A program made the position numbers and the translations under genes. From positions 1,612,001 through 1,676,000 of the forward strand of contig NZ_CP082249.1 in NCBI RefSeq assembly GCF_019879105.1: DNA of 64,000 nucleotides, read 5' to 3'. The notes beneath the pieces were generated by a model. That model was not told the origin of the DNA. It saw only the letters and a program-made list of their open reading frames with translations, and made no database searches. This DNA is from Natrinema sp. SYSU A 869 (GTDB lineage Archaea > Halobacteriota > Halobacteria > Halobacteriales > Natrialbaceae). Each line of letters opens with the position of its first letter. The first letter of the stretch is position 1. Below, piece after piece: positions 20,470-32,080 of the stretch.

Positions 20470-21147
20470 ATGGACCGCAGCGAACTCGCCCCCCTGATCG
20501 ACCACACCGTTCTCGGTCCCGAGACGACCCCCGCCGACGTCCGGAACGTCCTCAACGAGGCCGCCGAGTGCGGAATGAACGCCTGTATCCCGCCGTACGC
20601 GGTCGAACTGGCAACCGAGTACGCCCCCGACGTGACTCTCGCGACGGTGATCGGGTTCCCACATGGGCAGCACGCTCCCAAGGCGAAACGAAAAGAGGGG
20701 GTCGCCGCCTGGCAGGAGGGCGCGGACGAACTCGACGTCGTGATCAACGTCGGTCGGCTGCGAGCGGGGGAGGACGGCGCGGTCAGAGCCGAACTCGAGG
20801 AACTGGTCGCCGCCGTCCCGATCCCGGTCAAAGTGATCATCGAGGCCCCGCTGCTGACCGACGCCGAGAAACGACGAGCCTGCGAGGCTGCCGCGGCGGC
20901 CGACGCAGCGATGGTCAAGACCGCGACCGGGTTCGCTAGCGTTGCTTCTCCGAAGCAACGTGCGAACGGCGAAGCCGTGAGTGCCGGCGCAACCATCGAC
21001 GACGTCGAACTCATGAGCGAGTTCCTCCCCGTCAAGGCCAGCGGCGGGATCGGCAGCTACGAGGAGGCCATCGCCATGCTCGAGGCCGGAGCCGAACGAA
21101 TCGGGGCCTCGAGCGGGGTGGCAATCCTCGAGGGTGCGCCGGAGTAG
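20470..21147 (+). CDS. deoC: Deoxyribose-phosphate aldolase with a palindromic in-frame insert
   Basis: A 225-residue TIM-barrel aldolase. It has [10 protein letters not shown] near residue 92, [11 protein letters not shown] near 122, the Schiff-base Lys in MVKTATGF near 152 and the second Lys in [14 protein letters not shown] near 190. It cleaves deoxyribose 5-phosphate to glyceraldehyde 3-phosphate and acetaldehyde, the last step of deoxynucleoside use. Directly after the Schiff-base strand, where relatives have about three residues, there are some 17 extra ([18 protein letters not shown]). They are encoded by DNA with two hairpins. The insert keeps frame and lies in a loop beside the active site. 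It is divergent from the isomerase. Confidence 0.93.
20940..20978. repeat. Palindromic element inside deoC
   Basis: CGTTGCTTC and its reverse complement flank TCC at 20940-20960, a perfect 9-bp stem with a 3-nt loop. A second hairpin, ACGGC-GAA-GCCGT, follows at 20966-20978. Together they encode most of the extra loop of DeoC. Confidence 0.6.
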
Positions 21148-21267
21148 CCGGTCTCGTTCAATCTAACCAGCATCTGCCAGAAAACGCGTGCAAGATACAG
21201 AGAACGTATTCCCTGCTATTAGTAGCCGTCAGAAGTGATTTCCACTCCTATTACCTCTGAAGGTGGA

Positions 21268-21411
21268 TCACTCCTGTGGTTTACTGATATTTAGCATTTC
21301 ACCCTCGCATTTCGGGCACTCCATCGGATGTTGGTCGGCCTTCATTCTGTGTCCACACCTCGTACATTCGAATGTGTACGGAGGCGATGTCCTGGTTGTT
21401 TGTTCCCCCAT
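21268..21411 (-). CDS. Rubrerythrin-like mini zinc protein (DUF7129-like)
   Basis: A 47-residue protein. Two CxxC knuckles, FECTRCGHRM and MECPKCEGEM, spaced as in a rubredoxin-type zinc ribbon, take up most of it. Similar short haloarchaeal proteins are annotated as rubrerythrin-like or DUF7129 zinc-binding proteins; their partners are unknown. A TATA-like GATTATTG 26 bp before the ATG supports a real leaderless gene. The region is more AT-rich than its surroundings. Confidence 0.8.
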   Translation of the reverse strand: MGEQTTRTSPPYTFECTRCGHRMKADQHPMECPKCEGEMLNISKPQE

Positions 21412-21728
21412 CGCATTTCTAGCTAATACGCCCACAATAATCAATCTTAGGACTACATTCGACCAGTTATTGCGACATGATCGCTATAGATGGGGAGTTA
21501 GGTATCAGCCTTGATCATTGCGGATTCAGAATGAGTTCTCCTCGCATACTCGTGATGGTGTGGGAATATGATGGAAAATAGTTAATAACTATTTGTTCTC
21601 TCATAGCGTCTCTAGGACCTGTCTTACGATGACAGTACAGGCAAACCCGGTAGATGGTAGTGCAGTGATAGACTTCCGAGAGAGACTTCACAGTCCTATA
21701 CTCTGGCCTACCAAAGCAGGGAACACTC
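21412..21728. other. AT-richer intergenic stretch
   Basis: About 317 bp between the mini zinc protein and the methyltransferase, with visibly more A and T than the flanks. I see no convincing gene on either strand. CCTATACTC at about 21693-21701 is a possible TATA box for the methyltransferase at 21729. Confidence 0.5.
21433..21442 (-). promoter_or_regulatory. TATA box of the mini zinc protein
   Basis: GATTATTGTG on the minus strand, centred about 26 bp before the ATG at 21411. Confidence 0.5.
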
Positions 21729-22559
21729 ATGACCGCTGAGGACCGCCTCGAAACGCAGGCCGCGTGGGACAAGGTCGCAGCTGGTTTCGACGAGTATACC
21801 ACACCCTTGACTATCTCCTTTGCGGAGATGGCCCTTGATAGAGTCGATCTCGGCCCAGAGATGCGGTTTCTCGACGTGGCCGCCGGCAGCGGAGCCCTCA
21901 GCATTCCGGCGGCACGCCTCGGCGCGGAGGTAGTGGCGACCGACATCTCTCCCGCGATGGTTGAGTTGCTCACTGCGCGTGCACGGTATGAGGAACTGGC
22001 CGATATCGAGGCCCGTGTCATGGATGGCCACGCCCTCGAGTTGGCGGACGATACCTTCGATGTCTCCGCATCTCAGAACGGTGTCTCGCTGTTTCCGGAC
22101 ATGCAGCGCGGACTGCGCGAGATGGTACGTGTCACGAAACCAGATGGGCAGGTGCTGATCCTCGCGTTTGGTCCACCGACGGAGGCAGAATTTCTCACGT
22201 TCTTCATGGAGGCAATGCAAGCGGCCATTCCTGGCTTCGATGGCCTCCCGGTGGACCCCCCGCCCTTACCATTCCAGGTGGCAGATGCCGAGAAGTTGCG
22301 CGCACAGCTTGCCGACGCTGGACTGAACGATATCCGCATTGACACCGAGACATGGGACATGGAAATCCAGTCCGCCGAGCACCTCTGGGACGTGGTGGTC
22401 AACAGCAACCCAATTACCACAACTCTGGTCGCCGACCTGACCCAAGAGCAAATTGCCGAGGTCCAGAGGGTCCTAGAGACCAAACTCCGAGACCGTTCCG
22501 GAGGGAGCGGCCCCGCCGTCCTGACCAACCGAATGCATATCGCCATCGGGACCAAGTGA
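21729..22559 (+). CDS. Class I SAM-dependent methyltransferase (UbiE-like)
   Basis: A 276-residue enzyme. Motif I is FLDVAAGSGALSIPAARLGA near residue 48, followed by the acidic VVATDISPAM. SASQNGVSLFPDMQRGLREM forms the region between motifs IV and V, and the C-terminal half is a substrate-binding cap. The fold matches UbiE/COQ5-type small-molecule methyltransferases; the acceptor is unknown. It stands alone next to an AT-rich stretch, and its codons (for example GGA, CTT and ACC mixed) look slightly less GC-biased than the neighbours, so recent acquisition is possible. Confidence 0.85.
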   Translation: MTAEDRLETQAAWDKVAAGFDEYTTPLTISFAEMALDRVDLGPEMRFLDVAAGSGALSIPAARLGAEVVATDISPAMVELLTARARYEELADIEARVMDGHALELADDTFDVSASQNGVSLFPDMQRGLREMVRVTKPDGQVLILAFGPPTEAEFLTFFMEAMQAAIPGFDGLPVDPPPLPFQVADAEKLRAQLADAGLNDIRIDTETWDMEIQSAEHLWDVVVNSNPITTTLVADLTQEQIAEVQRVLETKLRDRSGGSGPAVLTNRMHIAIGTK

Positions 22560-22794
22560 CAACGCTGGTCTGGCCGACAGTATCGAGTACATCAACTCAG
22601 TTCACGTGGTCGAGGTCAGTACTGGATATAGCTGAAAGATACACGCTGTCTATTCAGCATGCCTCAGCGAACATCACTTGCCTCCGATAGACTGTCCATC
22701 GCTCACTAAGCACAGAGACTTACTGACGCATTCGTCCGATCAACTCCCGAGCGAAGCCGAACAGTTTTGGTCGCTCCACGAGCAACGAAACCCC

Positions 22795-24272
22795 ATGCTC
22801 GAGCAGGTGCGCGCACGACTTCGCGCGCTCGCGAGGCGACTCCGTCGGTTGGAGCGACGCGAACTCGACGCGTTCGTCCGGTGGATCGAGCACACTGGGA
22901 ACCTCCTGCATCTCTCGATCTTGGTGTTCGTCCCGCTGCTGATCGCCGCGGTGACGTGGTTAGCGAACATGACGGCGGCGATCTCGTTCTTGCTGTTTCC
23001 GCCGTTGGCCTCCGGAACGTACACGCTCTTCGCCAATCCGGAAGGGAAGTACGCCATGCCGTGGACGTTCGTCGGTGGGATGACCGTCGGGGCGCTCTGC
23101 GGGTGGCTCGCAGTTGCGCTCGCGGCCGCGATCGGTCTAGATGGTGGCGGAGCCAGCGCGTCCGGTGCCGCTCTGGGCGTCTTCTTCACCGGCGTTTGTA
23201 CCTGGGCGCTCGATCTCGAGGTGCCGACGGCGTTCTCGACTGCCTTGCTCGTGCTCGTCACTGGGAACGCACAGTTGGCCTACGTCCTCGGCATCGTCGT
23301 CTCGAGTGCGTTCGTCGCGAGTGCGTTCGTCCTCTGGCGGGATCGCTTCTACGAACAGCGCGCTCGGTATCTCTACCAGACGACCAGCGGGGACGACCAC
23401 GTCCTCGTCCCGATGGATGACTGCGAGGAGACTGTCGCCCGCTTCGCCGCGTCGATCGCCGGTGCCCACGACGCCGGGAAGGTGGTCCTCTTCGACGTCA
23501 TTGACGAGGCCGAGGCCGAGCAACGACGCGACGAACCGTCTACGAGTGAGCGTCAGGACGAGACGAGCCCCACCGAACGCGCGGCCAGCGACGCCGCTCG
23601 CCACCTCGAGTCGCTCGCGGCTGATCTCGAGATGGCATACGACGTTCCCTGCGAGGTCGTGGTCGCGGCCGACAGTGGTGAGCGACCTTTTGGGTCGCGA
23701 TCCTCGTCGGAGCGCGGCTCCGACGGCGGACTCTCGGCTGGGCTCACCCTCCAGACTGCACGGCAGCAAAACTGCGACCTCATCGTCGCGCCGTACGCCG
23801 AACGTGAGAGCGGCGGTCTCTCGTCGTTCATCACAGGGCTGTTCGACAGCGAAATCGACGTGATCGCGTTCCATTCGAACGGCACCCCGCGACGGCGATG
23901 GCGGGACAGCCTCGTGGCGGTCCGCGGGGCGGGCGACACTGCCCGTGCGATGCTCGACTTTGCGATCCGGGTGACCGAAGCCGGCAGACCGGTCAGCGTC
24001 CTGACCTGCATCGATAGCGAATCGCGTCGCCGGACCGCCGAGGGTACGCTCGCAGACCTCGTCGATGCGTTCTCGGGACGCTTCGAGACACACGTCGCTA
24101 CCGCGTCGGTCGAATCCTATCTCAGCCGGGCCGCCCCCGGTATGACGTCTGCTTCGTCGGCTCGAGCACCGATCGCTCGGCTGCCTCGCGGTTCGTCTCC
24201 CCGCCGACGTTTCGGAAGCTCAGCGACCTCGAGGCCGACGTGGCGATCGTCCACCGCGGTCGACATCGATAG
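22795..24272 (+). pseudogene. HPP family membrane protein with UspA-like C-terminus, frameshifted near the end
   Basis: It starts at ATG 22795 (MLEQVRARLRALARR). After a basic helix come the HPP membrane helices, with FLLFPPLASGTYTLFANPEG as the signature near residue 65 and PWTFVGGMTVGALCG. Two UspA-like domains follow (HVLVPMDDCEETVARFAAS; NCDLIVAPYAE). In the five-C run at 24134-24138 the frame slips. One more C gives RYDVCFVGSSTDRSAASRF and VAIVHRGRHR, ending at 24272. A hydrophilic linker near residue 300 is encoded by a perfect palindrome. HPP proteins have been linked to nitrite transport in plants; the role here is open. Confidence 0.8.
23682..23725. repeat. Palindromic element inside the HPP-UspA gene
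   Basis: GCGACC and GGTCGC pair at 23682-23698. Then CGTCGGAGC and its reverse complement flank GCG at 23705-23725, again a perfect 9-bp stem with a 3-nt loop. The DNA is read in frame as a Ser/Gly/Arg-rich linker. Confidence 0.55.
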
Positions 24273-24687
24273 CGTACGTACGTTTGTGAATGGAACGGAG
24301 AATCGGTAGCATGGAAACAGTGACGACGTGTGTCCTGCTATCGTGGCGACATGGAATGGCCACGCCCTCCCCAGCCGATTTCTGCTCACGGGCGCGTAGC
24401 GCCCGTTCGCATGGTTCACGGAACCCTCGGTTCCGCGCTAACGCTCACGCCTACCGGGTTCGCTCATCCACAGGAAGACGCTTCGCGTCTTCCACGCCTT
24501 CGTTCACTGCGTTCACGAAGACCTCGCGCAGTATCGTCAGCCGTCCACACTATCGTTCGGACGGTTGACAGCGCGCGTCACTGCATAGCAGGTGATCGAT
24601 CGGAGCGATACATAGGTCACCTGTACTGACTGTGTCTCTCACGATTCAATCTGAATGAAAACCGTTCGACACCCTCCTGCAGAGACC
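24273..24687. other. Long intergenic region with a cluster of palindromes
   Basis: 415 bp without a supported gene between the HPP-UspA gene and the 3' end of the K+ channel gene. The middle is packed with hairpins, listed separately. Short frames here are all Arg/Ser-rich by-products of the repeats. Confidence 0.6.
24389..24520. repeat. Array of small perfect hairpins
   Basis: Four hairpins lie within 132 bp. CGGGCGC-GTA-GCGCCCG is at 24389-24405 (7-bp stem). CGGAACC-CTC-GGTTCCG is at 24419-24435 (7-bp stem). The pair around TTC with arm GGAAGACGC is at 24473-24493 (9-bp stem). CTTCGT/ACGAAG is at 24498-24520 (6-bp stem, 11-nt loop). The first three all have 3-nt loops, as do the palindromes inside deoC and the HPP-UspA gene. 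Confidence 0.7.
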
Positions 24688-31799: not shown

Positions 31800-32080
31800 G
31801 TCGTGCGGGAAAGAACTTCGCAGGATCAATGTGAATTAGCCGATGCGGTGGCGCGCGCTGCGCCGCGACGAGCAGTGCGAGGCCAACGCAGTGAGGCTTC
31901 GAAACGCGAACGGGGAGTGAAACGACCCGTGAGCTGACGGCGAGTCGCGGTGCAAATTCGTGCGAGGTCTTCGCGAACATCGTGAGCGAATCGGTTGGGG
32001 AGGGTGTGGTAATTCCAGGCCGCCAGCATTCGCAGGACACTCTGTTCGGTTTGAACCATCAATAGTGAATATTACGAATG
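31800..32080. repeat. Non-coding stretch resembling a haloarchaeal dispersed repeat
   Basis: The segment between two minus-strand genes is full of imperfect short inverted repeats (for example ACGGG and CCCGT around GAGTGAAACGA at about 31906-31926) and the motif GTGCGAGGTCTTCGCGAAC. It closely resembles dispersed elements I remember from Natrialba-group genomes, but this could not be checked here. No frame in it looks like a protein. The whole gap from 31772 to 32125 holds nothing else. Confidence 0.4.

Follow-up and report, generated by a model that had tools for sequence, protein, structure and literature searches.

The small palindromes of Natrinema sp. SYSU A 869 probably represent a dispersed family of Halobacteria sequences, the double-hairpin element (DHE), which behaves as a non-autonomous mobile or horizontally spreading sequence. 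The elements are dispersed, share a sequence consensus, show compensatory changes, are present in some orthologues and absent from others, and keep to a single sense and a single frame where they occur in genes. In the window, the whole stretch of 64,000 nucleotides analysed here, the initial annotation had pointed out three perfect 9+3+9 hairpins, which are found at 20940-20960, 23705-23725 and 24473-24493, and had regarded them as a family of lone palindromes. The family was borne out, with the correction that two hairpins together, framed by conserved letters, make up its unit.

Architecture and copies in the window

The DHE unit, TAGCG-hairpin 1-(R)ACCATGCGAACGG-hairpin 2-CCGTGAGCAGA, measures about 45-65 bases and combines two perfect hairpins, whose loops are usually of 3 nt, with flanking letters that are unpaired and conserved. 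The two hairpins are unlike, the consensus ends being TAGCG.. and ..GAGCAGA, and in the stem of hairpin 2 a tandem G.A/A.G mismatch is conserved (GCGAAC opposite GTGAGC). DHEs were found alone between genes, nested in each other's loops, as modules of a larger repeat, and in frame in conserved enzyme genes. Copies were scored with a covariance model (R2) trained on intergenic copies alone, because a MAFFT alignment of coding and intergenic copies misplaced deoC. The features of the window are as follows:

20937..20982, + strand: DHE inside deoC, CGTTGCTTC(tcc)GAAGCAACG, then TGCGAACGGC(gaa)GCCGTGAG
23677..23727, + strand: insert of two hairpins within the HPP-Usp gene, GTGAGCGACC(tttt)GGGTCGCGA, then CGTCGGAGC(gcg)GCTCCGACG
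24332..24584, - strand: large multi-hairpin repeat, full copy, core GCGGTGGCGCGCGCTG..GGATGAGC..AATCGGCTGGGGAGGGCGTGGC..GCCACGATAGCAGGAC
24381..24442, - strand: canonical DHE within the large repeat, GTTAGCGCGGAACC(gag)GGTTCCGTGAACCATGCGAACGGGCGC(tac)GCGCCCGTGAGCAGA; R2 84.7 bits, E 1.2e-19
24473..24493, - strand: third 9+3+9 hairpin, GGAAGACGC(gaa)GCGTCTTCC
31845..32038, + strand: the large repeat again, in a second and more diverged copy; R1 24 bits, E 0.006; R2 19.7 bits
63720..63785, + strand: double-hairpin-like sequence AATAGCGCGGGACCCTCGGTCTCGTGGACCGTGCGAACGG..., with no open frame across it; R2 31.7 bits, E 2.8e-5

The deoC insert, of about 42 nt (14 aa), is in frame and directly follows KTATGF, the segment in which the catalytic lysine lies. 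It is missing from the solved DeoC structure 5dbu and appears in a structure model as a low-confidence loop (pLDDT <50 at residues 159-163 and 165-168). The window copy scores 22.4 bits with R2, and orthologous copies reach 29.3 (deoC copies overall: 29.3/25.1/22.4). A consensus extends beyond the stem, a point that the initial annotation had proposed to test: the string TGCGAACGG..CCGTGAG is common to deoC and the intergenic copy, with 0 expected from shuffled sequences.

The HPP-Usp insert encodes GERPFGSRSSSERGSDG, and its SSERGSD hairpin has the same codon phase as the SAERSSAD of the family. It is an insertion of the same style, but R2, the family model, gave it no score in the window scan and does not recognise the copy, which therefore belongs to the DHE family only probably. 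Among the loci compared for an empty site in the TrkA-HPP interval, no syntenic relative was found.

The intergenic hairpins near 24.4 kb form part of a larger repeat with several hairpins, in which intergenic copies serve as modules. The two shorter ones also exist, although the one at 24388-24406 has arms of 8 bp and the arms are 7 bp long, as first stated, in the one at 24419-24435 alone. The full repeat lies about 100 nt past the stop codon of a same-strand K+ channel/TrkA gene, has a fold z of -4.2 and scores 156 bits with R1, whose training set includes this copy. The hairpin at 24473..24493 is an optional peripheral part, which short copies lack, and the diverged copy at 31845..32038 retains the GCGGTGGCGCGCGCTG start and a GGTTGGGGAGGGTGTGG core. 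The repeat has at least 17 copies and mostly sits after gene ends. No Rfam 15 family matched the window above its gathering score, and six repeat loci returned only one tRNA and chance hits. TnpB omega-RNA or IS605 ends were rejected as its source for want of shared sequence: the 26 places with a tnpB domain have scattered 11-mers in common with it and nothing longer.

Hairpin excess and its origin

Against 20 dinucleotide shuffles, the window contains 6 loop-3 hairpins whose arms reach 9 bp or more (shuffle mean 0.65, largest 3) and 14 whose arms reach 8 bp or more (2.95 in shuffles). Over 2.06 Mb of the same genome, 110 hairpins of the first kind (3-nt loop, arms of 9 bp or longer) were counted where 27.0 were expected, a 4.1-fold excess, compared with 1.5-2-fold for loops of 4-8 nt. 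The excess is real and strongest at 3-nt loops, and perfect 9+3+9 palindromes are indeed rare by chance, as the initial annotation had supposed. The described elements, which cover 0.36% of this sequence, hold 35 of the 110 loop-3 hairpins and none of the 176 hairpins with loops of 4-8 nt.

Chance hairpins promoted by GC-rich codon usage would agree with the fact that most genic loop-3 hairpins are not insertions: among 32 with arms of at least 9 bp and orthologues available, 7 are inserted, 6 of them at the same deoC site (random control positions: 24/584). A lone 9+3+9 hairpin was therefore rejected as an insertion marker and is not diagnostic by itself. The fourfold excess, its peak at loop 3, the consensus flanks and the orthologue gaps nevertheless make this explanation hardly credible for the family, and for the three noted hairpins a chance origin is refuted by consensus and orthologue comparison.

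Alternatively, each hairpin could have arisen independently at its own site through template switching during replication (palindrome correction), with no mobile family involved. Perfect arms, variable stems and 3-nt loops fit such a process, which can also yield perfect arms with compensatory changes, and the loop-3 excess extends beyond the listed elements (75/110). However, letters outside the stems are conserved and shared between copies, in-frame inserts have a common peptide, and the tandem G.A mismatch stays uncorrected in canonical copies, so that we consider this origin highly improbable. Compensatory changes were observed in intergenic copies that had not been selected for pairing, and in coding copies synonymous third positions covary so that the hairpin is preserved (A-T 25, G-C 27, unpaired 2). 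Tandem G.A internal loops were rejected as a general feature of the genome, in which they are mildly enriched, mostly through the DHE family.

Distribution and insertion into genes

With R2, DHEs were detected in 230 of 292 Halobacteria genomes and 65 of 77 genera, the counts per genome being lower bounds. The model also scored coding copies that it had not seen, which besides those of deoC were Top6B at 41.1 bits (E 1e-7), ArgH at 36.2 and TmcA at 34.4. A coding-type DNA pattern that takes no account of strand or frame matched 101 genomes within the class; reversed-pattern controls gave 0, and outside the order none of 312 genomes was matched. No exact match was found among viral contigs.

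About 30 unrelated genes carry a DHE, with equivalent in-frame inserts in ArgH, Top6B, TmcA, LigA, IleS, ValS, TrpB, HemD and others. Orthologues were compared for deoC, HPP-Usp, ArgH, Top6B and TmcA, and TrpB with a solved structure, which lacks the insert. That genic hairpins encode extra in-frame residues, as first claimed, was confirmed for deoC and HPP-Usp, and the inserts are not shared by all orthologues: deoC's is carried by about 9 of 81 species, and that of HPP-Usp is missing in 34/34 orthologues (carried by 0/34). The insert occurs in ArgH in 4/30 genomes from 3 genera, in Top6B (54 nt) in 2/30 and in TmcA in 2/30.

Strand and frame were determined for 70 loci fetched by the coding-type pattern, with genes called from base composition and family hits instead of annotation. 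On this basis, about 50 of the 70 copies are genic, in one orientation and one codon phase. By composition, 43/70 are coding, and 43/43 of these are sense and in one phase; by GC3, 49/52 are in the sense phase, the other 3 being borderline antisense, one of them sense according to an NCBIfam hit. Five of the six reading frames are open across nearly all 70 copies. Wherever a good check was possible, genic copies have the same strand and reading frame.

It is also conceivable that the inserts are not mobile, but are ancient, vertically inherited and repeatedly lost, or that halophiles swapped them together with the gene around them by homologous recombination. Several genera have the insert at the same site in deoC, ArgH and Top6B, and haloarchaea recombine freely, both of which suit this account. 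Against it, the carriers of the deoC insert were rejected as a single clade (7 changes, AU p 0.0066), the Top6B insert is 92% identical between two genera, as compared with 77% and 73% for the 60-nt blocks next to it, and is lacking in congeners, and some 30 unrelated genes are concerned. We regard non-mobility as rather unlikely.

Mode of spread and related systems

The preferred reading, a spreading DHE family, would involve insertion of copies by transposition or short-tract recombination. The single frame may then be retained by selection for a soluble, flexible, acidic surface-loop peptide, SAERSSADxSSGQSPRE.

Movement by a Y1 (HUH) transposase (RAYT, IS200/IS605 TnpA), as in REPIN/REP-type elements, or descent from IS605 ends (PATEs) was also considered. 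DHEs are small hairpins that, as bacterial REPs do (PMC3733652), lie mostly between genes that converge or run in the same direction, NTAG precedes hairpin 1 in many copies, and 202 of 292 genomes encode Y1 transposases. Dependence on Y1 is nevertheless unsupported: among the listed genomes of the same family without a Y1_Tnp match, 18/19 carry DHEs, some with at least 12-18 copies, and several Y1-rich genomes (e.g. G014 and G054) have no detected DHE. In the Natrinema genome itself, the DHEs found are chromosomal, whereas the two smaller contigs carry most of the TnpB genes. DHEs do not require a Y1 (RAYT/IS200) transposase in the same genome, and this origin is very unlikely. GTAG-/CGTC-tagged REPs and REPINs (PMC3733652, PMC3116915) resemble DHEs as short hairpins near gene ends, some of them genic, but differ in their link to Y1/RAYT, in having other conserved flanks and in lacking two unlike hairpins; the GTAG/CGTC tag, found at the end of inverted REP doublets, is absent from the DHE consensus.

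DHEs appear to be the haloarchaeal counterpart of the Rickettsia palindromic elements (RPEs; Ogata 2000, 2002; reviewed in PMC10969869), which have Wolbachia counterparts, and the likeness suspected initially proved close. Both are palindromic DNA inserted in frame in unrelated housekeeping genes, tolerated in loops and also found between genes. As in RPEs, the repeat lies in many unrelated genes whose orthologues lack it, in one orientation and reading frame. The two are likened by description and differ in size and composition: RPEs measure about 150 bp in Rickettsia, whereas DHEs are archaeal, of 45-65 bp, with a double hairpin, 3-nt loops and the tandem G.A motif. Methanocaldococcus jannaschii, which belongs to another class, offers an archaeal precedent for coding potential in its protein-coding palindromic repeats (Suyama, Lathe and Bork 2005, cited in PMC2996958), also compared by description. 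Mitochondrial GC clusters and double-hairpin or repetitive hairpin-forming elements (PMC4478555, PMC2800124) are similarly tiny, insert sporadically and merge their units; they belong to other genomes and sequences, and in-frame, one-phase coding insertion is the rule for DHEs. In the sections of PMC3119063 consulted, the MITEs, PATEs and SMRs of Haloquadratum are likewise small, transposase-free mobile haloarchaeal repeats capable of nesting; SMRs have 80-110 bp and terminal inverted repeats, whereas DHEs have internal hairpins, and those sections mention no in-frame coding insertion. The DHE consensus lacks the terminal inverted repeat pair of MITEs, and at ArgH, Top6B and deoC nothing exceeding 2-3 nt could clearly be taken for a target-site duplication.

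No description of DHEs was found in Rfam or the literature searched. "Selfish" palindromes that code for protein, so far familiar chiefly from bacteria living inside cells, are shown to be widespread in free-living, genetically tractable archaea, where they occupy essential enzymes (DNA ligase, tRNA synthetases, topoisomerase VI, tryptophan synthase). The regularity of DHEs in strand, frame and peptide makes two questions testable in the laboratory: how tiny repeats spread with no obvious transposase, and whether proteins gain new peptide segments in this way. A caution concerns protein alignments, in which many of the haloarchaeal "insertions" are repeats.

The large, RNA-like repeat family is itself undescribed and has no Rfam model. 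A more speculative possibility, to which we give little credence, is that DHEs are mobile as RNA, the folded module inserting in sense into transcripts and returning to the chromosome; the large repeat would then be a new multi-hairpin RNA class collecting DHEs, and the proteome would be continually extended by one acidic peptide. The sense bias would also suit RNA-level insertion, and selection on the encoded peptide accounts for the frame at least as well. The all-sense orientation, the location after gene ends, the pairing at synonymous sites and the lack of a transposase link are compatible with RNA-level mobility.

A double-hairpin element behind the triloop hairpins

As the initial annotation had stated, three perfect hairpins with 9-bp arms and a 3-nt loop are present, at 20940-20960 (deoC), 23705-23725 (the HPP-UspA gene, HPP-Usp) and 24473-24493 (intergenic). 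The two shorter ones that it had listed, both with 7-bp arms, were also found, with arms of 8 and 7 bp. The expectation that such palindromes are rare by chance was borne out: the window holds six loop-3 hairpins whose arms reach 9 bp or more, versus 0.65 in dinucleotide shuffles, and 2.06 Mb of the same genome hold 110 versus 27.0 expected, a 4.1-fold excess, against just 1.5-2-fold for loops of 4-8 nt. In that sequence, the elements described here cover 0.36% and contain 35 of the 110 loop-3 hairpins and none of the 176 with loops of 4-8 nt. A lone hairpin is a poor insertion marker, since only 7 of 32 coding loop-3 hairpins (arm of at least 9 bp, orthologues at hand) were insertions, six of them at the single deoC site, with 24 insertions at 584 random control positions.

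The consensus extends beyond the stem, with TGCGAACGG..CCGTGAG common to the deoC and intergenic copies on the element strand and none expected in shuffles. Lists of hairpins with their flanks revealed a double-hairpin element (DHE, ~45-65 bp) of the form TAGCG-[hairpin 1, triloop]-(R)ACCATGCGAACGG-[hairpin 2, triloop]-CCGTGAGCAGA, whose stems vary and whose unpaired letters are almost constant. In hairpin 2, GCGAAC lies opposite GTGAGC, forming a tandem G.A/A.G mismatch within the stem. Intergenic copies were selected by an unpaired 15-mer, without regard to pairing, and in these both sides had changed in 11 of the 35 predicted pairs; a further alignment, biased by its selection for perfect hairpins, agrees. 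In coding copies, both members of one stem pair are third codon positions at which the change is synonymous (GAA/GAG with AGT/AGC). With a DNA pattern that permitted all combinations there, A-T was found in 25 copies, G-C in 27 and an unpaired state in only 2 (p = 3e-14, indicative only because copies are non-independent), which supports maintenance of the hairpin inside genes independently of the peptide.

Elements also nest. At four loci (L468, L487, L491 and L492), the deoC-type element (CAGCGTTGCGTCGGAGACGCAACGAGC..) holds TAGCGCGG..GAGAAGA in the loop of its second hairpin, and intergenic copies nest similarly at L153, L159 and L165, resembling the merging of yeast mitochondrial GC clusters (PMC4478555).

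The large intergenic repeat

The DHE is also a module of a large multi-hairpin repeat, of which the window has a full copy:

24332-24584, minus strand: large repeat, one of at least 17 in the genome

Searches gave 18 matches in this genome, of which one (L163) resembles a chance match. The repeat is 180-370 nt long and runs from GCGGTGGCGCGCGCTG to GCCACGATAGCAG. As RNA, it has a better fold than its shuffled versions (z -3.7 and -4.2), and it has no match in Rfam. R1, a model built from its 3' part, has matches in 153 of the 292 Halobacteria genomes and in 46 of 77 genera. Short copies lacking the double hairpin (L031, L037, L038) read GAGCG-AATCGG, as against GAGCG-[TTAGCG...GAGCAGA]-AATCGG with it. 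Gene calls made roughly, from composition, place a co-oriented gene upstream in 19 of 27 cases and an oppositely oriented one downstream in 22 of 31; a like arrangement has been reported for bacterial REPs (PMC3733652). A diverged form in Halococcus thailandensis (L089, 13920-14330; TTGGCGCGCGCTTGCG..GTGCGAGGGATGAGC..GTCGGTTGGGGAGG) suggests that the core is old within the class.

In-frame insertions in protein-coding genes

The hairpins inside genes had been proposed to encode extra residues. In deoC, the hairpin is an in-frame insertion of 42 extra nt after KTATGF, missing in most of 81 species. The full insert is found in the window, Natrinema ejinorense, Halostagnicola, Natronorubrum and three Natrialba, with a partial one in Salinadaptatus and a related one in Halorussus ruber. 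A single clade of carriers is rejected (AU p 0.0066, Halorussus left out), and the insert requires 7 changes on the tree when Halorussus is included. The solved DeoC 5dbu lacks it, and in the deoC model it is the sole region with pLDDT below 50 (residues 159-163 and 165-168; mean 91.6).

The HPP-Usp hairpin is likewise an insertion, absent from 34 of 34 orthologues, and is not scored by R2, the covariance model of the DHE. The reading frame of this gene apparently shifts near a C run at ~24130-24140 (window 24120-24260), past which the other frame has a native-looking end, YDVCFVGSSTDRSAASRFVSPPTFRKLSDLEADVAIVHRGRHR; the break seems to be a pseudogene, a true frameshift or a sequence error.

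Trained on intergenic copies only, R2 also scored copies within Top6B, ArgH, TmcA, acyl-CoA ligase and LysA (2.0 Mb of the genome); a copy in a TRM5/TYW2-type gene, found by pattern, reached 20.5 bits, this match and that in LysA being weak. Orthologues from 30 genomes per gene show sporadic inserts in ArgH (four genomes, three genera), Top6B (this genome and one other genus) and TmcA (two genomes). Between the two genera, the Top6B insert is 92% identical and the adjacent 60-nt blocks 77% and 73%. PurH of Halostagnicola carries a similar insert. Two further genomes have a shorter, single-hairpin ArgH insert at the identical codon; at these loci (L340 and L347, two other genera) it is hairpin 2 alone, of GCGAACGGTGAAACCGTGAGC type, which would fit either a hot spot at this codon or decay of the DHE by loss of hairpin 1.

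Two other insert types were noted. A perfect 13+4+13 coding hairpin in Halovivax (L044, 5441-5471), outside the DHE family, encodes ELELGLEFEFEAEGEE and is an insertion when compared with 16 of 23 homologues. Histidine kinases (L146, 17871-17938; L106, 6460-6479) carry repeated in-frame N box inserts (NSVEHGSTSPASGSQRDAVEHGSTSPDSQARQ..), hairpin-bearing (8+3+8), missing in most homologues and distinct from the DHE.

Strand, frame and spread

A coding-type DNA pattern blind to gene strand and frame matches 101 of 292 Halobacteria genomes and none of 312 outside the order; the reversed-pattern control had no match among the genomes listed. Across the 70 loci read, 43 copies were genic by amino-acid composition and GC3, every one sense and in a single codon phase. 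GC3 alone gave 49 sense copies in the same phase and 3 borderline antisense; among these three, L428 is identified by its family match as a sulfurtransferase in sense. The encoded peptide is near SAERSSADxSSGQSPRE, and hosts include IleS, ValS, LigA, MoeA, TrpB (the solved structure of which lacks the segment), acetylglutamate kinase, HemD, Hel308, AhcY and chorismate synthase.

Five of the element's six frames are open in nearly all copies, so the absence of stop codons does not cause the single frame. The most likely cause is selection for a peptide that is soluble and acidic, as the canonical element's other frames give arginine-rich segments. Insertion at the RNA level also fits, the sense bias being compatible with it.

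Dispersed, united by a consensus, covarying in its stems, sporadic at orthologous sites and read in one sense frame, the DHE would have spread by insertion. A Y1 transposase (RAYT/IS200-type) in the same genome is not required, because the DHE is present in 18 of the 19 listed own-family genomes that lack one. At the ArgH, Top6B and deoC sites, no duplication of the target longer than 2-3 nt can be seen.

The suggested likeness to the coding palindromes of Rickettsia holds for in-frame inserts, mostly missing in orthologues, in one sense phase. Such palindromes are already known in Rickettsia and Wolbachia, with one archaeal case, Methanocaldococcus jannaschii, cited in PMC2996958 (Suyama, Lathe and Bork 2005); small repeats without transposase are known from Haloquadratum (PMC3119063). 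In agreement with the initial annotation, which knew of no haloarchaeal counterpart, we found no description of the DHE family in the searchable literature, which omits most subscription journals. One genome (G274:C1) has five copies identical across the 35-nt pattern, a possible sign of recent spread.
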